From Anabaena sphaerica FACHB-251 (GTDB taxonomy: Bacteria > Cyanobacteriota > Cyanobacteriia > Cyanobacteriales > Nostocaceae), in NCBI RefSeq assembly GCF_014696825.1, contig NZ_JACJQU010000008.1:124001-188000 (forward strand): a DNA stretch of 64,000 nt. Reading direction: 5' to 3'. Within the stretch, counting starts at the first letter, position 1; each line of letters starts with the position of its first letter. The position numbers and the translations under genes are program-made. Below are positions 10,937 through 32,900 of this stretch, piece after piece. The notes beneath the pieces were generated by a model. The model saw only the letters and a list, made by a program, of their open reading frames with translations, ran no database searches and had not been told where the DNA came from.

Positions 10937-12118
10937 TTATGAATTACGTGGTGTATATCTTTGACGATTATATATGGCAAAACCTAAAACTAAAAATGTT
11001 AAAACTCCTGCTAAATATAAAGGATAGCCATAAGTTATCGGCTGAGATTGCTGTACAATCATTCCGGCAATTACAGGACCAATACCATTAGAAATACTTA
11101 GATAAGAAGCATTTAATCCTAAAACAGTTCCCTGATCTTCAGCTTTAGCATTGAGAGAAATTAACGTGCTAATCATCGGTTGCACAAGAGAATTGAATAA
11201 GGAAAATAATATACTAACTATGACAAAATAATTAATGTTAGCCCAAATCGGCATTAAAAAAAATGACAAACTCCGAAAAAACAAACCTAAAAATAATATC
11301 TTGACTATATCAAATTTTCCTTTGAGGATAGAAATTCCCCAAGTTTGCATAATTACTGCCAGCGTACCAAAAGTTAAAAAGAGAAGAGTTAAAGATTGAC
11401 TATTTTGCCCCAGAACCTTGATAAAGTAAGGTTGAAAAGCATAGGTAAACATTGTAAATGTTGTCCCAGTAAAAAAATTAATTAATAGTAAAATGCCAAT
11501 TCCTGGCATTGCTAAACCTTTAATTAAATTTCCTAAACCTAAATCAAAGATATTTTTAGGTTTTTGTGCCTGCTGTTGGAGAGTTTCTGGTAAAAATAAT
11601 ATTGTCATTAACAAAGCCACAAACGCTACTCCACCAGAAGCTAAAAAAGCAGCCCCCAAAGAAATCTGCTGTGCTAACAAACTTGTAGCTGGTCCTAAAA
11701 CAAAGCCTAACCCCATTGCTGCACCATAAATGCCAAAAGCTTGGGCGCGTTTTTGGGAAATGGTGATATCAGAAATAACTGCTTGAGCAACAGAGGCGTT
11801 ACCACCCGTGATCCCATCTAAGAATCTGGCAAAAAATAGCACCCAAGCTGTTGTTGCCGTTCCCGCTATGAAGTTAGCAATCACAGTACCAGCTAAACTG
11901 ATAATTAGTAAAGGCTTACGCCCAAATCTATCAGATAATTTACCTATGACGGGGGTTGCGAAAAACTGAGCTATAGAGTAAATAGAAAATAATAAACTGG
12001 TTTGAAAATCGGTCAGACCAAATTGTTTACCATAAAGATAGATAATGGGAATTAAAATTGTAAAACTGAGGGAGTTAACAAAGGCAATTAAAGCAGTAAT
12101 CCAAAAATTACGATTCAT
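10937..12118 (-). CDS. Major facilitator superfamily exporter (TetA-like)
   Basis: The 393-residue protein has twelve predicted membrane segments. The motif-A loop between helices 2 and 3 reads GKLSDRFGRKPLL, the drug/proton antiporter form, and motif C of helix 5 appears as GLGFVLGPATSLL, which marks exporters of the TetA type. The start codon at 12118 faces the divergent K+ channel gene across an 87-bp gap. The substrate cannot be deduced; resemblance to tetracycline exporters is at subfamily level only. Confidence 0.85.
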   Translation of the reverse strand: MNRNFWITALIAFVNSLSFTILIPIIYLYGKQFGLTDFQTSLLFSIYSIAQFFATPVIGKLSDRFGRKPLLIISLAGTVIANFIAGTATTAWVLFFARFLDGITGGNASVAQAVISDITISQKRAQAFGIYGAAMGLGFVLGPATSLLAQQISLGAAFLASGGVAFVALLMTILFLPETLQQQAQKPKNIFDLGLGNLIKGLAMPGIGILLLINFFTGTTFTMFTYAFQPYFIKVLGQNSQSLTLLFLTFGTLAVIMQTWGISILKGKFDIVKILFLGLFFRSLSFFLMPIWANINYFVIVSILFSLFNSLVQPMISTLISLNAKAEDQGTVLGLNASYLSISNGIGPVIAGMIVQQSQPITYGYPLYLAGVLTFLVLGFAIYNRQRYTPRNS

Positions 12119-13123: not shown

Positions 13124-13476
13124 GAGAGTAAGAGTATGGCTTGAGCTTGCGTGTGATGTAGGAGTCATTCGCCACACTTTACTATCAGTAATTTAGGTAA
13201 TCTACTCAACTAATTACAGAATATAATGAAGAAGCCTATACATTTAAAGGCTGGGAAGAATCACTTCACGCCAAAATCAGGTGGTTGTAATTTTTGATAA
13301 TTTTTACTGGTAGTGCTAAGTTTTTCTATTTCTAGACTCAATTAGGCTTTACTCGCTTCCCACCTTGAGAATACCGATTGAATAAACCACGAAGGCACGA
13401 AGAACAAGAAGCAAGAAGGAAGATAGGTAATCTTGCATTGGGAAGGGAGTAGTCGCAAAAGGAGCTAGAAACTATT
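13124..13476. other. Intergenic region before the sensor cyclase
   Basis: There is no convincing gene here. A 22-codon frame near 13226 (MKKPIHLKAGKNHF...) is too short to support. The segment 13384-13440 is a purine-rich run (cgaaggcacgaagaacaagaag) like those often found between genes in this genome type. A GGAG at about 13460 is a usable ribosome-binding site for the downstream ATG at 13477. Confidence 0.4.
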
Positions 13477-16400
13477 ATGAACCTCAATGATCATAACCTA
13501 AATATTGATGTTAGCTCAATTCATTGGAATTGGAATTATTTAGTGGCAGAAATTTCTCTCCAGATCCGGCAGTCATTAGAATTACAAACAATTTTACAAA
13601 CAACTACCGATGAAGTACAAAAACTACTCCAGTGCGATCGCGTGCTTTTGTACAAATTTGATTCAGATTGGAGTGGTGAAGTAGTAGTAGAAACCGTTTT
13701 AGATCCTCAATGGTCTATTTTAGGTAAATTAGTTCATGATACTTGTTTTGAAACCTGTTGGTTACAACCCTATCAAGAAAATCAAGTCAAAACTATTGCT
13801 GATGTTAATACAGCTAACCTTACACCCTGTCATGCAGAATTTTTAGCAGGTTTTCAGGTTAAAGCAAACTTAGTTGTACCCATACTTTGTACTTCCCAAC
13901 TTTGGGGTTTATTAATTTGCCATAGTTGTATCGCTCCCCGTGAGTGGCAAACCCAAGAAATAGAAGGTTTACAACAAATAGCCGTTCATGTTGGTATTGC
14001 TATTCACCAAGCCTGTTTATTAGCAGAATTACAACAGGAAAAAGCCAAATTAGAAGTCGTAATGGCAACACGCACAGAGCAATTAGAACAAACTAATTTA
14101 GATTTTCTCACAGAAGTCAGAGAACGATCAAAACTGGAAACAATAGTTAGTGAAAGTGAAAAATTTTTACGGCAAGTTTTAGACAGTATTTTTACCTTTG
14201 TGGGAGTATTAACCTTTTCGGGAATTTTAATAGAAACAAACCAAGCACCTTTAGATATTGCTGGAATTACCCGTGAAGATGTATTAGGTAAACACTTTGC
14301 AGATACCTATTGGTGGGAATATTCCCCAGAAGCTAAAGCAAAAATTCGAGCAGCAATCGAACAAGCTCAACAAGGAATTACAGTTAGATTTGATATTCCC
14401 GTACAAGCAAAAGAAGGAAAACAAATTATCATTGATTTTTCCCTTCATCCTCTACGAAATGAACAAGGAGAAATCACCCATTTAATTCCTTCTGGTACTG
14501 ATATTACAGAACGCAAACAGGCGGAAATTGCCTTACAAAAAAGTCGGGATGAAAGATTTAGATTAGCAGCAATTGTAGAATCTTCTGAAGCAGCAATTAT
14601 TAGTAAAACCCTCGATGGTATTATTACTACTTGGAATCAAGCAGCAGAAAGGTTATTTGGTTATAATACCTCCGAGATCATTGGTAAACATATCAAAACC
14701 CTAATTCCCTTAGAACGTCAAACAGAAGCTGCATCCATTTTACAGCGTATTCAACAAGGGGAAAAAGTAAATACCTATGAAACCCAAAGACAACATAAAG
14801 ACGGTAGTTTAATTGATGTAGCCTTAACTATTTCGCCTATTTGTGATGAAAATGGTGTAATTATTGGCGCATCAAAAATTGCTAGGGATATTCGTGATCG
14901 CAAACTCCTGGAATCAGAAAGAAATCAAGTAGAATTAGAACTACGTCAAAGTAATGAACAACTAGAAGACTTCTTTGATAATGCTAGTGATTTAATTCAA
15001 AGTGTTTCCTTAGAAGATGGGAAATTTATTTATGTTAATCGTGCTTGGTTAGAGACATTAGGTTATAGTCGTGATGAACTGAATAACCTCACAATTTTTG
15101 ATTTAATTCATCCTGATTGTTTACCCAATTGTCAACGAATATTTCAAGAATTACAATTAGGTAAAACAAATAATTTAGAGCGATTAGCGATTTCTTTTAT
15201 TAATAAAAACCACCAAAAAATACTTCTAGAAGGTAGTATTAATGTCAGATTTGCAGAGGGTAAACCAGTTGCTACCCGCGCAATTTTACGAGATGTAACA
15301 GTCCAACGTCAAATAGAAGTTACTCTGCAAGAACAAGCTAAAATTCTCCAAATATTTTATGACTATTCTCCTTTGCTGTTAGGAGTAGTGGAAACTTCAG
15401 AAAATGATATTCTCCATACTTTACATAATTCCACAACCTTGGAATTTTTTGGAATTTCTAGAGAACAGCTAGATAATAAATGGGCAAGGGAAATTGGTGT
15501 TAAACCAGAAACAATTCAAATGTGGTTAGATCACTATTGTCAAAGTCAGGAAACACAAACACCTGTGCAATTTGAATATGAACATCATACAGATCAACAA
15601 ATCTATTACTTATCTACTATAGTTAAATATATTGGCATTGCTGACAGTGGACGACCTCAATTTTCCTTTATGGTGCGGGATATTAGTGCCATTAAACAGT
15701 TAGAAATTGAACATCAAAAAATAGAACTGGTTGAGCAAAGAAATCAACAAGTTAAACAAGAAATTAAACTCTTAGAAAATATTTTAGATATCGTTTTAGC
15801 AGGTTATTGGGATTGGGATATCAAGAATAATACTGAATATCTCAGTCCTGGGTTAAAAAAAATGTTTGGTTATGCAGATCATGAACTATCTAATTCTTCA
15901 GAAACTTGGCAAAAACTAATTTTTCACCAGGATCTACCCAATGTATTGTATAGGTTTGATCAGCATATTCAAAGTCATGGAGAAATTCCCTTCTATAACG
16001 AAGTTAGATATCTTCATAAAGATGGCTCAATTGTGTGGGTAATTTGTTCGGATCAAGTGATTGAATGGGATGAAGATGGTAATGCGGTCAGGATGATTGG
16101 TTGTCATATTAATATTACAGATCGCAAGCAAGCTGAAAATAATTTGCGGCACATTAATCTAGTTTTGGAAAATGCTGTAGAAGGAATTGCTCGTTTAGAT
16201 GTTACAGGTAGATATGTAACTATTAACCGTGCTTATGCAGAAACTTGTGGTTATGAACCTAATGAATTAATTGGTAAAGAATGGCAAATCACAGTTCATG
16301 CAGAAGATTTACCTGCGTTGGAATCTGCATATCAAACTATGTTGAAAACTGGCAAGGTTAATCAAGAAGCTAGAGGAGTTCGTAAAGATGGGAATATTTT

Positions 16401-18291
16401 TTATAAACAATTAATTATGATCAGTGATTACGATGACCAAGGGCAATTTATTGGTCATTACTGTTTCATGAAAGATATTAGCGATCGCAAAGAATTTGAA
16501 ATAGCTCTATTAGATAGTGAACACCGTTATCGTAATATTATTGAAACAACTTTGGAAGGGGTTTGGATCTTAGATGCAGAAGGTAAAACTACCTTTGTCA
16601 ATCAGCGAATGGCGGATATGCTGGGTTATAGTTGTAGTGAAATGATTGGCACTCATTTAATGGATTTTATTAATTCTGAAGATCGTCCCCAAGCACAAAT
16701 TTATATGCACAGACGACTACAGGGAATTGGTGAACAGCATCCTTTCAAATTTCAGCATCAAGATGGAACTTCTTTATGGACTCTAGTTTCTACTACACCC
16801 ATTTTAGATCATAATCATAATTTTTTGGGTGCTACAGGTTTAATTACTAATATTACTCAATTGGTAAATGTTCAAAATGCCTTAAAAAATTCGGAATTGC
16901 AGTTAAGTGGGGTTTTAAATAGTTCCTTAGATGGCATTATGGCTTTTCAGTCGGTGCGAAATGAACAAGGTAAGATTATTGATTTTGAATGGTTATTATG
17001 TAATCCTACTGCTTATCAAGTTATAGGTAGGGAAGATTTAATTGGGAAACGACTATTAACAGAACTGCCAGGAAATAAGGAAGAAGGACTATTTGATCTC
17101 TATATTAAAGTTGTAGAAACTGGTGAACCTATCCAAAGAGAGTTTTATTATAATCATGATGGAATTGACTGCTGGTTTGAAAACATCGCTGTCAAATTAG
17201 GAGATGGTTTTGCTGTTACTTTCCGTAATGTGACAAATAATAAAAAATCAGAACAGGCTTTACAAATTCTTAATAAACAATTAGAAGAACGGATTACAGA
17301 TTTAGCTCAACGTCATGAAGAAATGCTAATTTTAAGTGAAATTAGCGACTTTCTGCAAGCTTGTTTAACTGTTCAAGAAGCCTGTGAAATTCTGAGTAAT
17401 TTAGTCCAACCTCTATTTCCTGATTGTAGTGGGGGTTTATTTATTACTAATTCCTCTCGTAACCGGGTGGAAATGTTATCTTCTTGGGGTGGGTCTCTAT
17501 CATCTATTGTGGATTTTTACCCCAATGAATGCTGGTCTTTAAGACGGGGAAAAATTCATATTTGTAATGCTAAAAAATTTGGTTTACGTTGTCAACATAT
17601 TCCCAAAGATGTAAAACTTACTAACACTATTTGTATTCCTATGATTGCCCAAGGTGAGACTTTAGGGATGTTCCATATTATGACTAATAACCCCAAAGCC
17701 TTATCAGAAACAAAAGAACAAATTGCCCGTGCTTTAGCTGAACAGGTAGGATTGGCTTTAGCTAATCTTAATCTACGAGAAACCCTACACCATCAAAGCA
17801 TTAGAGATCCTTTAACGGGTTTATTTAATCGTCGTTATTTAGAAGAATTTTTAACTCAAGAAATCGCCCGCGCTCAACGTAAACAACAGCCTATAGGTGT
17901 GATCATGTTAGATGTGGATCATTTCAAACGTTTTAATGATACCTATGGTCATGACGCAGGAGATTATGTATTAAAAGCTGTAGGTGGTGTTTTGAAAGAA
18001 CATATTCGGGGTTCAGATATTGCTTGTCGTTACGGTGGAGAAGAAATGAACGTCATTCTGCCCGAATCTTCTATTGAAGAAACTGCGATGAGAGCAGAAG
18101 AAATGAGACAGGCGATCGCCCAACTGTCCCTTTCTCATAATAGACAAACATTAGGTAGCATCACGGTATCTTTAGGAGTTGCTGGTTTTCCCCAACATGG
18201 TGCTAGTAGTACGGCATTAATTCAAACTGCTGATGCTGCCCTATATCGTGCTAAAGCTGCTGGACGTAATCAAGTTATAGTTGCACCCTAG
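13477..18291 (+). CDS. Cyanobacteriochrome-type GAF / multi-PAS / GAF diguanylate cyclase
   Basis: The 1604-residue cytosolic sensor ends in a GGDEF domain that would make cyclic di-GMP. Domains in order: GAF1 (about 30-178), a coiled coil (about 178-225), eight PAS/PAC units (about 227-1270), GAF2 (about 1290-1425, CWSLRRG), and GGDEF (about 1435-1604). GAF1 has DTCF at 88-91 and a canonical Cys118-His119 in PCHAEFLAGFQVKANLVVPI. The two cysteines are 28 apart, as in DXCF cyanobacteriochromes such as TePixJ, so bilin binding and blue/green sensing are likely. The active site reads GGEEM (1520-1524) in place of GG[DE]EF. An intact RxxD inhibitory site (R1511-D1514) lies five residues before it. 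No EAL domain follows. Confidence 0.9.
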   Translation: MNLNDHNLNIDVSSIHWNWNYLVAEISLQIRQSLELQTILQTTTDEVQKLLQCDRVLLYKFDSDWSGEVVVETVLDPQWSILGKLVHDTCFETCWLQPYQENQVKTIADVNTANLTPCHAEFLAGFQVKANLVVPILCTSQLWGLLICHSCIAPREWQTQEIEGLQQIAVHVGIAIHQACLLAELQQEKAKLEVVMATRTEQLEQTNLDFLTEVRERSKLETIVSESEKFLRQVLDSIFTFVGVLTFSGILIETNQAPLDIAGITREDVLGKHFADTYWWEYSPEAKAKIRAAIEQAQQGITVRFDIPVQAKEGKQIIIDFSLHPLRNEQGEITHLIPSGTDITERKQAEIALQKSRDERFRLAAIVESSEAAIISKTLDGIITTWNQAAERLFGYNTSEIIGKHIKTLIPLERQTEAASILQRIQQGEKVNTYETQRQHKDGSLIDVALTISPICDENGVIIGASKIARDIRDRKLLESERNQVELELRQSNEQLEDFFDNASDLIQSVSLEDGKFIYVNRAWLETLGYSRDELNNLTIFDLIHPDCLPNCQRIFQELQLGKTNNLERLAISFINKNHQKILLEGSINVRFAEGKPVATRAILRDVTVQRQIEVTLQEQAKILQIFYDYSPLLLGVVETSENDILHTLHNSTTLEFFGISREQLDNKWAREIGVKPETIQMWLDHYCQSQETQTPVQFEYEHHTDQQIYYLSTIVKYIGIADSGRPQFSFMVRDISAIKQLEIEHQKIELVEQRNQQVKQEIKLLENILDIVLAGYWDWDIKNNTEYLSPGLKKMFGYADHELSNSSETWQKLIFHQDLPNVLYRFDQHIQSHGEIPFYNEVRYLHKDGSIVWVICSDQVIEWDEDGNAVRMIGCHINITDRKQAENNLRHINLVLENAVEGIARLDVTGRYVTINRAYAETCGYEPNELIGKEWQITVHAEDLPALESAYQTMLKTGKVNQEARGVRKDGNIFYKQLIMISDYDDQGQFIGHYCFMKDISDRKEFEIALLDSEHRYRNIIETTLEGVWILDAEGKTTFVNQRMADMLGYSCSEMIGTHLMDFINSEDRPQAQIYMHRRLQGIGEQHPFKFQHQDGTSLWTLVSTTPILDHNHNFLGATGLITNITQLVNVQNALKNSELQLSGVLNSSLDGIMAFQSVRNEQGKIIDFEWLLCNPTAYQVIGREDLIGKRLLTELPGNKEEGLFDLYIKVVETGEPIQREFYYNHDGIDCWFENIAVKLGDGFAVTFRNVTNNKKSEQALQILNKQLEERITDLAQRHEEMLILSEISDFLQACLTVQEACEILSNLVQPLFPDCSGGLFITNSSRNRVEMLSSWGGSLSSIVDFYPNECWSLRRGKIHICNAKKFGLRCQHIPKDVKLTNTICIPMIAQGETLGMFHIMTNNPKALSETKEQIARALAEQVGLALANLNLRETLHHQSIRDPLTGLFNRRYLEEFLTQEIARAQRKQQPIGVIMLDVDHFKRFNDTYGHDAGDYVLKAVGGVLKEHIRGSDIACRYGGEEMNVILPESSIEETAMRAEEMRQAIAQLSLSHNRQTLGSITVSLGVAGFPQHGASSTALIQTADAALYRAKAAGRNQVIVAP

Positions 18292-18359
18292 AAATTGAGA
18301 CAGCAGGAGTGCTGGGTGCTGGAGATAAATTCTAGACTTTTTCCCCAAATTAACATTAA

Positions 18360-18390
18360 CCGCCTATCCCAAAGAGACAGGCGGTTTTTT
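18360..18390 (+). terminator. Intrinsic terminator after the sensor cyclase
   Basis: The stem CCGCCT (18360-18365) pairs with AGGCGG (18379-18384), and six T residues follow at once. It lies about 70 bp past the cyclase stop codon. The convergent psbJ gene ends at 18430, so the hairpin may also help end that transcript. Confidence 0.75.
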
Positions 18391-18429: not shown

Positions 18430-18549
18430 TTACAATGAAGAACCAACTCCGGCGTAGGCTCCATAAAAGAAAATACCTACAACAGTAATTACACCTAAAC
18501 CTGCGATTGTAGCGACAACCCACAGGGGAATTCTCCCACTTCCAGACAC
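18430..18549 (-). CDS. psbJ: Photosystem II protein J
   Basis: PsbJ is a 39-residue single-helix subunit beside cytochrome b559, needed for electron flow and assembly at the acceptor side of PSII. The frame starts at a GTG at 18549, preceded by a strong GGAGGAG site eight bases away, which settles the start. The product reads [20 protein letters not shown] and ends [11 protein letters not shown], matching PsbJ. It is the last gene of psbE-psbF-psbL-psbJ. Confidence 0.95.
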
Positions 18550-18602
18550 AGTTTTCTCCTCCCTTACAAATAAATCAACAGAATTTAGCGATGAAGTTCC
18601 AG

Positions 18603-18722
18603 TTAGTTAAAGAAGTAACTGGAGAATAGAATCCCTAGAACGAAAATTAATAGCAGTCCCAGGTAAAGAGAAGTACGGTTTAATTCAACCGGTTGTTGAT
18701 TAGGATTCGGTGATTTTTCCAT
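18603..18722 (-). CDS. psbL: Photosystem II protein L
   Basis: This is a 39-residue PSII subunit at the monomer-monomer interface that supports the quinone sites. The product begins [20 protein letters not shown], and the hydrophobic helix [18 protein letters not shown] ends the protein, as expected for PsbL. It starts 9 bp after the psbF stop and precedes psbJ by 53 bp on the same transcript. Confidence 0.96.
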
Positions 18723-18731
18723 TACTTACTC

Positions 18732-18869
18732 CTAGCGTTGAATAAACTGCATTGCGGCGATCGCGCCTAAAAAGAAGACGGTTGGCACACCTAAAGTGTG
18801 AACTGCAAGCCATCTGACGGTAAAAATTGGATAGGTAACTGGTTGATTGATGTTATTGCCGCTGGCCAT
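18732..18869 (-). CDS. psbF: Cytochrome b559 subunit beta
   Basis: This 45-residue thylakoid protein supplies one of the two axial histidines of cytochrome b559 in the PSII reaction centre. The heme His lies in [11 protein letters not shown] near residue 24. The C-terminus is [10 protein letters not shown]. The start codon is 9 bp downstream of the psbE stop. The product is full length for PsbF. Confidence 0.96.
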
Positions 18870-18878
18870 GATTTCAAA

Positions 18879-19127
18879 CTACTTTTGGATAAATGTTTCT
18901 ACTTGCTTTTTAGCTTCATAACGGTTGCTGACGATTGGCACTTCTTGCCGTACCTGAGTGAAATATTCATTAGGACGGGGTGTGCCAAACGCATCATAAG
19001 CTAGTCCAGTGCTGACAAATAGCCAACCAGCCACAAATAAAGCTGGGATGGTGATGCTGTGAATGACCCAGTAACGAATACTGGTAACAATGTCCGAAAA
19101 TGGACGCTCTCCAGTGGTACCTGACAT
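18879..19127 (-). CDS. psbE: Cytochrome b559 subunit alpha
   Basis: PsbE (82 residues) pairs with PsbF to hold the b559 heme, a structural and photoprotective part of PSII. The axial His sits in [20 protein letters not shown] near residue 23, and the lumenal part contains [16 protein letters not shown]. It leads the psbEFLJ operon and follows ycf48 by 120 bp, the standard cyanobacterial arrangement. Confidence 0.97.
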
Positions 19128-32725: not shown

Positions 32726-32804
32726 AACTCTTGCAAATTCTCAGTAATTCAGACAGAATACATTGTTTGTTGATTTTGGGAAAGAATGTTAAGTAACTCT
32801 ACCC

Positions 32805-32837
32805 AGATCCCCGACTTCTTCAAGAAGTCGGGGATCT
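32805..32837. repeat. Palindromic hairpin repeat, copy 3
   Basis: AGATCCCCGACTTCTT and AAGAAGTCGGGGATCT form a perfect 16-bp stem around one base. It lies between the divergent starts of hpnB and shc, so in this place it cannot be a terminator for either gene. Confidence 0.8.
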
Positions 32838-32900
32838 ATATCCTGAATGTTTTATGTTTAACTATGTTGACCTACTATTTGGTGCTGAGGTAAGGATTTA

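Follow-up and report, generated by a model that had tools for sequence, protein, structure and literature searches.

Organization of the receptor locus

The window, that is, the whole 64,000-nucleotide stretch of Anabaena sphaerica FACHB-251 DNA analysed here, carries at 13477-18291 (plus strand) one intact open reading frame (ORF) with an ATG start and no internal stops (Table 1), in agreement with the 1604-residue protein predicted by the initial annotation. Its product opens with a GAF domain (GAF1; Pfam GAF match over residues 35-176) and closes with a GGDEF domain; as GAF1 is N-terminal and a PHY domain was absent from the Pfam results, there is no PAS-GAF-PHY module of the kind found in phytochromes. 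The eight segments between GAF1 and a second GAF domain (GAF2) were scanned singly against the Pfam models, and all of them matched some PAS model, PAS4 weakly. The relay of eight PAS domains described initially thus kept its count, whereas GAF2, which directly precedes the GGDEF domain, had been overlooked. GAF2 contains ECWSLRRG and RCQH stretches ahead of the GGDEF domain, and GAF2-bearing relatives were found in shorter ORFs of other Nostocaceae.

Table 1. Coordinates of the receptor gene, its domains and motifs, and adjoining signals in the window
Feature	Position	Strand	Evidence or remark
Whole ORF, GAF1-PAS x8-GAF2-GGDEF	13477..18291	+	1604 aa
AAGGAG-like ribosome site	13459-13464		~12 bases upstream of the ORF
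GAF1 (residues 22-183), chromophore domain of the DXCF cyanobacteriochrome type	13540..14025	+	Pfam, PDB sequence matches, model and Foldseek, tree
DTCF motif with the second Cys, Cys90 (Cys494 in TePixJ)	13738..13749	+	
Canonical Cys118-His119, equivalent to TePixJ Cys522-His523	13828..13833	+	
PAS1 (scanned segment)	14155..14523	+	PAS_4 49.4 bits
PAS2 (scanned segment)	14536..14898	+	PAS 75.7 bits
PAS3 (scanned segment)	14938..15306	+	PAS_9 48.4 bits
PAS4 (scanned segment), weak match	15316..15699	+	PAS_9 21.5 bits, below cut-off 27
PAS5 (scanned segment)	15748..16122	+	PAS_3 71.8 bits
PAS6 (scanned segment)	16114..16488	+	PAS_3 48.3 bits
PAS7 (scanned segment)	16489..16860	+	PAS 65.4 bits
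PAS8 (scanned segment), modest match	16867..17250	+	PAS_4 24.8 bits, cut-off 23.1
GAF2, residues 1298-1428	17368..17760	+	GAF_2 59.1 bits in whole protein, 43.5 bits alone
GGDEF diguanylate cyclase domain, residues 1442-1599	17800..18273	+	Pfam, TIGR00254, WspR and PleD alignments
RGSD (residues 1511-1514), I-site of the RxxD type for product inhibition	18007..18018	+	Sequence, alignment of relatives
Active-site loop GGEEM (residues 1520-1524), Met for Phe at the fifth place	18034..18048	+	
Terminator-like stem-loop, 13 pairs, between receptor gene and convergent psbEFLJ	18358..18386		T-rich on + strand too

The receptor gene is flanked upstream by a K+-channel-like gene and downstream by the convergent psbEFLJ genes. 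Since no operon partner was found, and no tested neighbour at the homologous loci was shared with the window, gene context gives no indication of function; promoter-like matches did not rise above those in shuffled sequences. The small ORFs at 18430-19127 (minus strand) read as psbJ, psbL, psbF and psbE; with ycf48 and rubredoxin next in line, they make up the photosystem II cluster typical of cyanobacteria. On the other side, the minus strand at 10937-12118 encodes an MFS exporter. It has relatives in the Tet(A)/(B)/(C) group but scored far below curated resistance cut-offs and is probably an ordinary transporter.

The chromophore domain and its likely colours

GAF1 had been read initially as a DXCF cyanobacteriochrome (CBCR) domain with a DTCF motif at Cys90 and a PCHAEFL motif at Cys118-His119, 28 residues apart, and both motifs were recovered at those positions (D88-T89-C90-F91 and P117-C118-H119-A-E-F-L). 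Comparison of GAF1 with PDB sequences by phmmer returned CBCR GAF domains as the top matches; TePixJ (3vv4, ‘DPCF...ECH’) aligned with an E-value of 1e-29 and gapless from before DTCF to beyond the Cys-His pair, so that both cysteines matched in the alignment to TePixJ that had been proposed as a check, C90 falling on Cys494 and C118 on Cys522, the residues that bind C10 and C3-1 of phycoviolobilin, respectively (PMC6955287). Among the bilin contacts named in that study, Asp492 (D88), Trp499 (W95), His523 (H119) and Asn535 (N131) were retained, whereas His498 and Gln526 were replaced by Cys94 and Phe122; the loss of pocket residues, named beforehand as grounds for refuting the assignment, was therefore confined to two of the compared positions. 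The TePixJ GAF domain (3vv4, 4fof, 4glq, 6pru) shares its fold with GAF1 at about one-third sequence identity, and its output is chemotaxis signalling, in contrast to the cyclase of the window protein. The best PDB match in both sequence and fold was the GAF domain of a dual sensor histidine kinase (6oap, 6ob8), which differs from GAF1 in lacking the second cysteine (DQYF versus DTCF) and in its histidine kinase output.

Across an alignment of ten GAF domains (GAF1, those of eight homologous proteins and one paralogue from the same genome), D88, C90 and C118 were invariant at identities to GAF1 down to 50%. In a wider set of 104 GAF domains gathered as relatives of GAF1, and hence a biased sample of GAF domains, both cysteines were present in 66; their spacing was 28 residues in 60 of these, 29 in four and 27 in two, which indicates that the 28-residue spacing is a family trait and not a chance feature. 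A maximum-likelihood tree placed GAF1 in a clade of ten, all with both cysteines (support 100/97), nested within a clade of 55 sequences, 53 of them dual-Cys, and apart from the red/green domain Slr1393g3. The AlphaFold2 model of GAF1 had a mean pLDDT of 77.7, was weakest at the N terminus and after DTCF (pLDDT 50-60 around residues 91-110) and matched CBCR structures in Foldseek, TePixJ 4fof among them.

The chromophore should also be at hand, since genes for two heme oxygenases and for a single bilin reductase are present in the genome, the reductase being identified by NCBIfam as phycocyanobilin:ferredoxin oxidoreductase (PcyA; 374.5 bits against a cut-off of 206). Because about fifteen further GAF domains of the genome aligned with both cysteines, possession of a DXCF domain is in itself nothing unusual for A. 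sphaerica FACHB-251. The genome as a whole gave 88 GAF matches on 44 contigs and has several red/green-type arrays besides the dual-Cys domains, which makes for a very rich set of bilin sensors.

By all available sequence and fold tests, GAF1 is a DXCF cyanobacteriochrome GAF domain, as initially proposed; the TePixJ alignment, conservation of the cysteines, the tree, the AlphaFold2 model with Foldseek and the phycocyanobilin supply all agree. Many of the GAF matches in the genome are without the cysteine pair, and GAF1 could in principle be a decayed or non-bilin domain that merely resembles a cyanobacteriochrome; the CBCR fold match, the further pocket residues retained and the encoded PcyA speak against this reading, as does the invariance of D88, C90 and C118 in relatives, by which decay was ruled out, and we consider it highly improbable. 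From its sequence, GAF1 would very probably form a covalent bilin adduct, and with good likelihood a blue-absorbing dual-Cys state as well.

The colour pair is predicted with less assurance. A red/green (XRG) assignment was ruled out at the motif positions, given that GAF1 has V86 at the Trp position of the extended WXDXXL motif and Cys at position 90. The trapped-twist positions, mapped through PMC5240096, correspond to Val69 on beta2 and Phe126 in helix 4, which likewise ruled out a full teal-DXCF assignment, for which a beta2 Phe is required as well. Blue/green tuning, our best guess from these residues, is moderately favoured over other DXCF colour pairs. GAF1 might instead be a DXCF domain that retains phycocyanobilin or forms another photoproduct (blue/orange, blue/yellow or blue/teal), an alternative of lower but appreciable probability: teal, yellow and orange photoproducts are on record for DXCF GAF domains (PMC5240096), the CBCR DpxA switches between teal and yellow (PMC4937213), the helix-4 Phe126 is present and two TePixJ bilin-contact positions differ, while the teal signature is incomplete at beta2 and both of its Phe residues are found in other GAF domains of the same genome (those of L117 and L126). 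DpxA was set aside as a model as it acts through a kinase.

Probable cyclase output and a proposed light relay

The GGDEF domain scored 175 bits within the whole protein and 179.5 bits alone and aligned closely with WspR and PleD. The DVDHFK and N/D residues are retained, as is the RGSD I-site five residues ahead of the active-site loop, although an RxxD site is not required for membership of the GGDEF diguanylate cyclases. The loop itself departs from the GG[DE]EF consensus at its fifth residue, which in relatives is M, L or I. On these sequence features the domain is quite likely an active cyclase.

The closest functional parallel is SesA (Tlr0924) of Thermosynechococcus, compared here by description, in which a DXCF-type CBCR GAF domain is likewise combined with a GGDEF domain bearing RxxD; SesA is a blue-light-activated cyclase that uses phycoviolobilin and is subject to RxxD feedback (PMC5871770, PMC8846402). 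The window protein differs in its N-terminal GAF1 and in the eight PAS domains and second GAF domain placed before the GGDEF domain. With SesA as a functional precedent, light control of the window cyclase is fairly probable, and by this analogy the protein most likely serves to place cyclic di-GMP (c-di-GMP) synthesis under light control of the blue/green type. The window receptor is a fresh example of an already known kind of photoreceptor, set apart by the unusual length of its sensory relay.

In the mechanism that we propose, GAF1 would attach phycocyanobilin covalently through Cys118 and probably isomerise it to phycoviolobilin. In the dark (15Z) state, Cys90 would add reversibly to C10 of the bilin, giving blue absorption, and light would break the Cys90-C10 bond to yield a longer-wavelength, green-type photoproduct. 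The signal would then pass from the C-terminal helix of GAF1 through a helical linker, along the eight PAS domains and across GAF2 until it reached the GGDEF domain and altered c-di-GMP synthesis, with product inhibition at the RxxD site as a limit; the PAS domains may bring further inputs. Against this scheme stand the distance of ~1100 residues between GAF1 and GAF2, far more than in SesA-type proteins, the non-consensus Met of the GGEEM loop, though relatives deviate there too, the replacement of TePixJ His498 and Gln526 and the low model confidence around residues 91-110. Taken as a whole, a photoreceptor diguanylate cyclase with a light relay from GAF1 to the GGDEF domain is nonetheless what the gene likely encodes.

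In a different reading, GAF1 binds bilin and switches, but the long PAS array makes the cyclase answer mainly to other signals (redox, gas or small ligands), so that light has a minor share or is integrated with them. It is consistent with the many sensory domains intervening between GAF1 and the GGDEF domain, with the loss of varying numbers of PAS domains in relatives and with a Spirulina homologue (L002) that keeps PAS-GAF-GGDEF but lacks GAF1 in the same ORF. In every other examined homologue that retains the N terminus, however, GAF1 is kept with both cysteines, and no ligand was identified for any PAS domain; we regard this reading as rather unlikely. Under the light-relay mechanism, the window receptor joins, as a long, many-sensor member, the few cyanobacteriochromes with a direct link to c-di-GMP, a messenger that affects heterocyst development in its filamentous heterocyst-forming family (PMC8682488). 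Should the light signal travel through the PAS array, the protein would be a natural test of how far along a polypeptide a bilin switch can reach.

Distribution and probable recent movement of the gene

Homologues collinear over nearly their full length were found in Dolichospermum sp. UHCC 0259 (L001; 90% protein identity), G274 (70%) and G114 (50%), and a search of the window's family, Nostocaceae, added those of G338 and G378. All five, with 50-90% protein identity, share the cysteine pair and the RGSD-GGEEM arrangement; their flanking genes are unrelated to those of the window, and none was found to have been characterised. Full-length homologues, defined by at least 69% identity in the PAS8-GAF2 region within an ORF of about 1600 aa, were present in only 5 of the 217 Nostocaceae genomes searched, that of the window included; shorter versions with fewer PAS domains were found in other cyanobacteria.

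The copy in UHCC 0259 is 92% identical to the window gene in DNA, and this similarity extends from 24 bases inside the gene start to 7 bases past the stop and then ends. The synonymous divergence of the receptor gene between the two genomes (Nei-Gojobori dS) was 0.23, compared with 0.72-1.45 for ycf48, rubredoxin, ndhC, ndhK and ndhJ of the same pair. In UHCC 0259 a deacetylase gene and a glutamate synthase gene enclose a 6.7-kb stretch that contains the receptor gene; in the window's genome the two enclosing genes are about 160 bases apart. Conversely, the place of the receptor gene after psbEFLJ is taken in UHCC 0259 and G274 by a different gene, of 796 and 839 aa, with similar N termini. 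Contamination was ruled out as the cause of the high identity, because the flanks on the same UHCC 0259 contig show ordinary divergence from the window's genome (glutamate synthase 78% and deacetylase 76% identity). The homologue of G338, from the same genus as UHCC 0259 (G337), is just 72% identical to the G337 copy, and its flanks are unrelated.

For the one close pair of genomes and the five genes compared, the low dS, the end of homology at the ends of the gene and the unrelated sites are most simply read as a recent horizontal transfer, or an exchange, of this gene alone between the lineages of the window's genome and UHCC 0259. Together with the unrelated sites of the other homologues and the lack of visible mobile-element genes next to it, this inclines us, with some reserve, to the view that the receptor circulates in Nostocaceae as a bare single gene. 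A literature search for transfer of such genes in Dolichospermum returned nothing relevant among the titles listed. On the evidence of transfer, species may be able to swap the light-colour input of c-di-GMP networks through single genes.

Adjoining the UHCC 0259 copy (L001, 5018-5725), within the 6.7-kb stretch that is missing from that site in the window's genome, is a sequence that resembles the C-terminal region of a family B DNA polymerase. Just upstream of the receptor gene, the window has short dispersed repeats at 13379-13424 and 13135-13188, each with several further copies in the genome at 79-92% identity, which might be related to the arrival of the gene at this site. An element of 33-37 bases at about 32800-32848 of the window is a palindromic interspersed repeat, with matches to both strands at dozens of sites across the genome of UHCC 0259.
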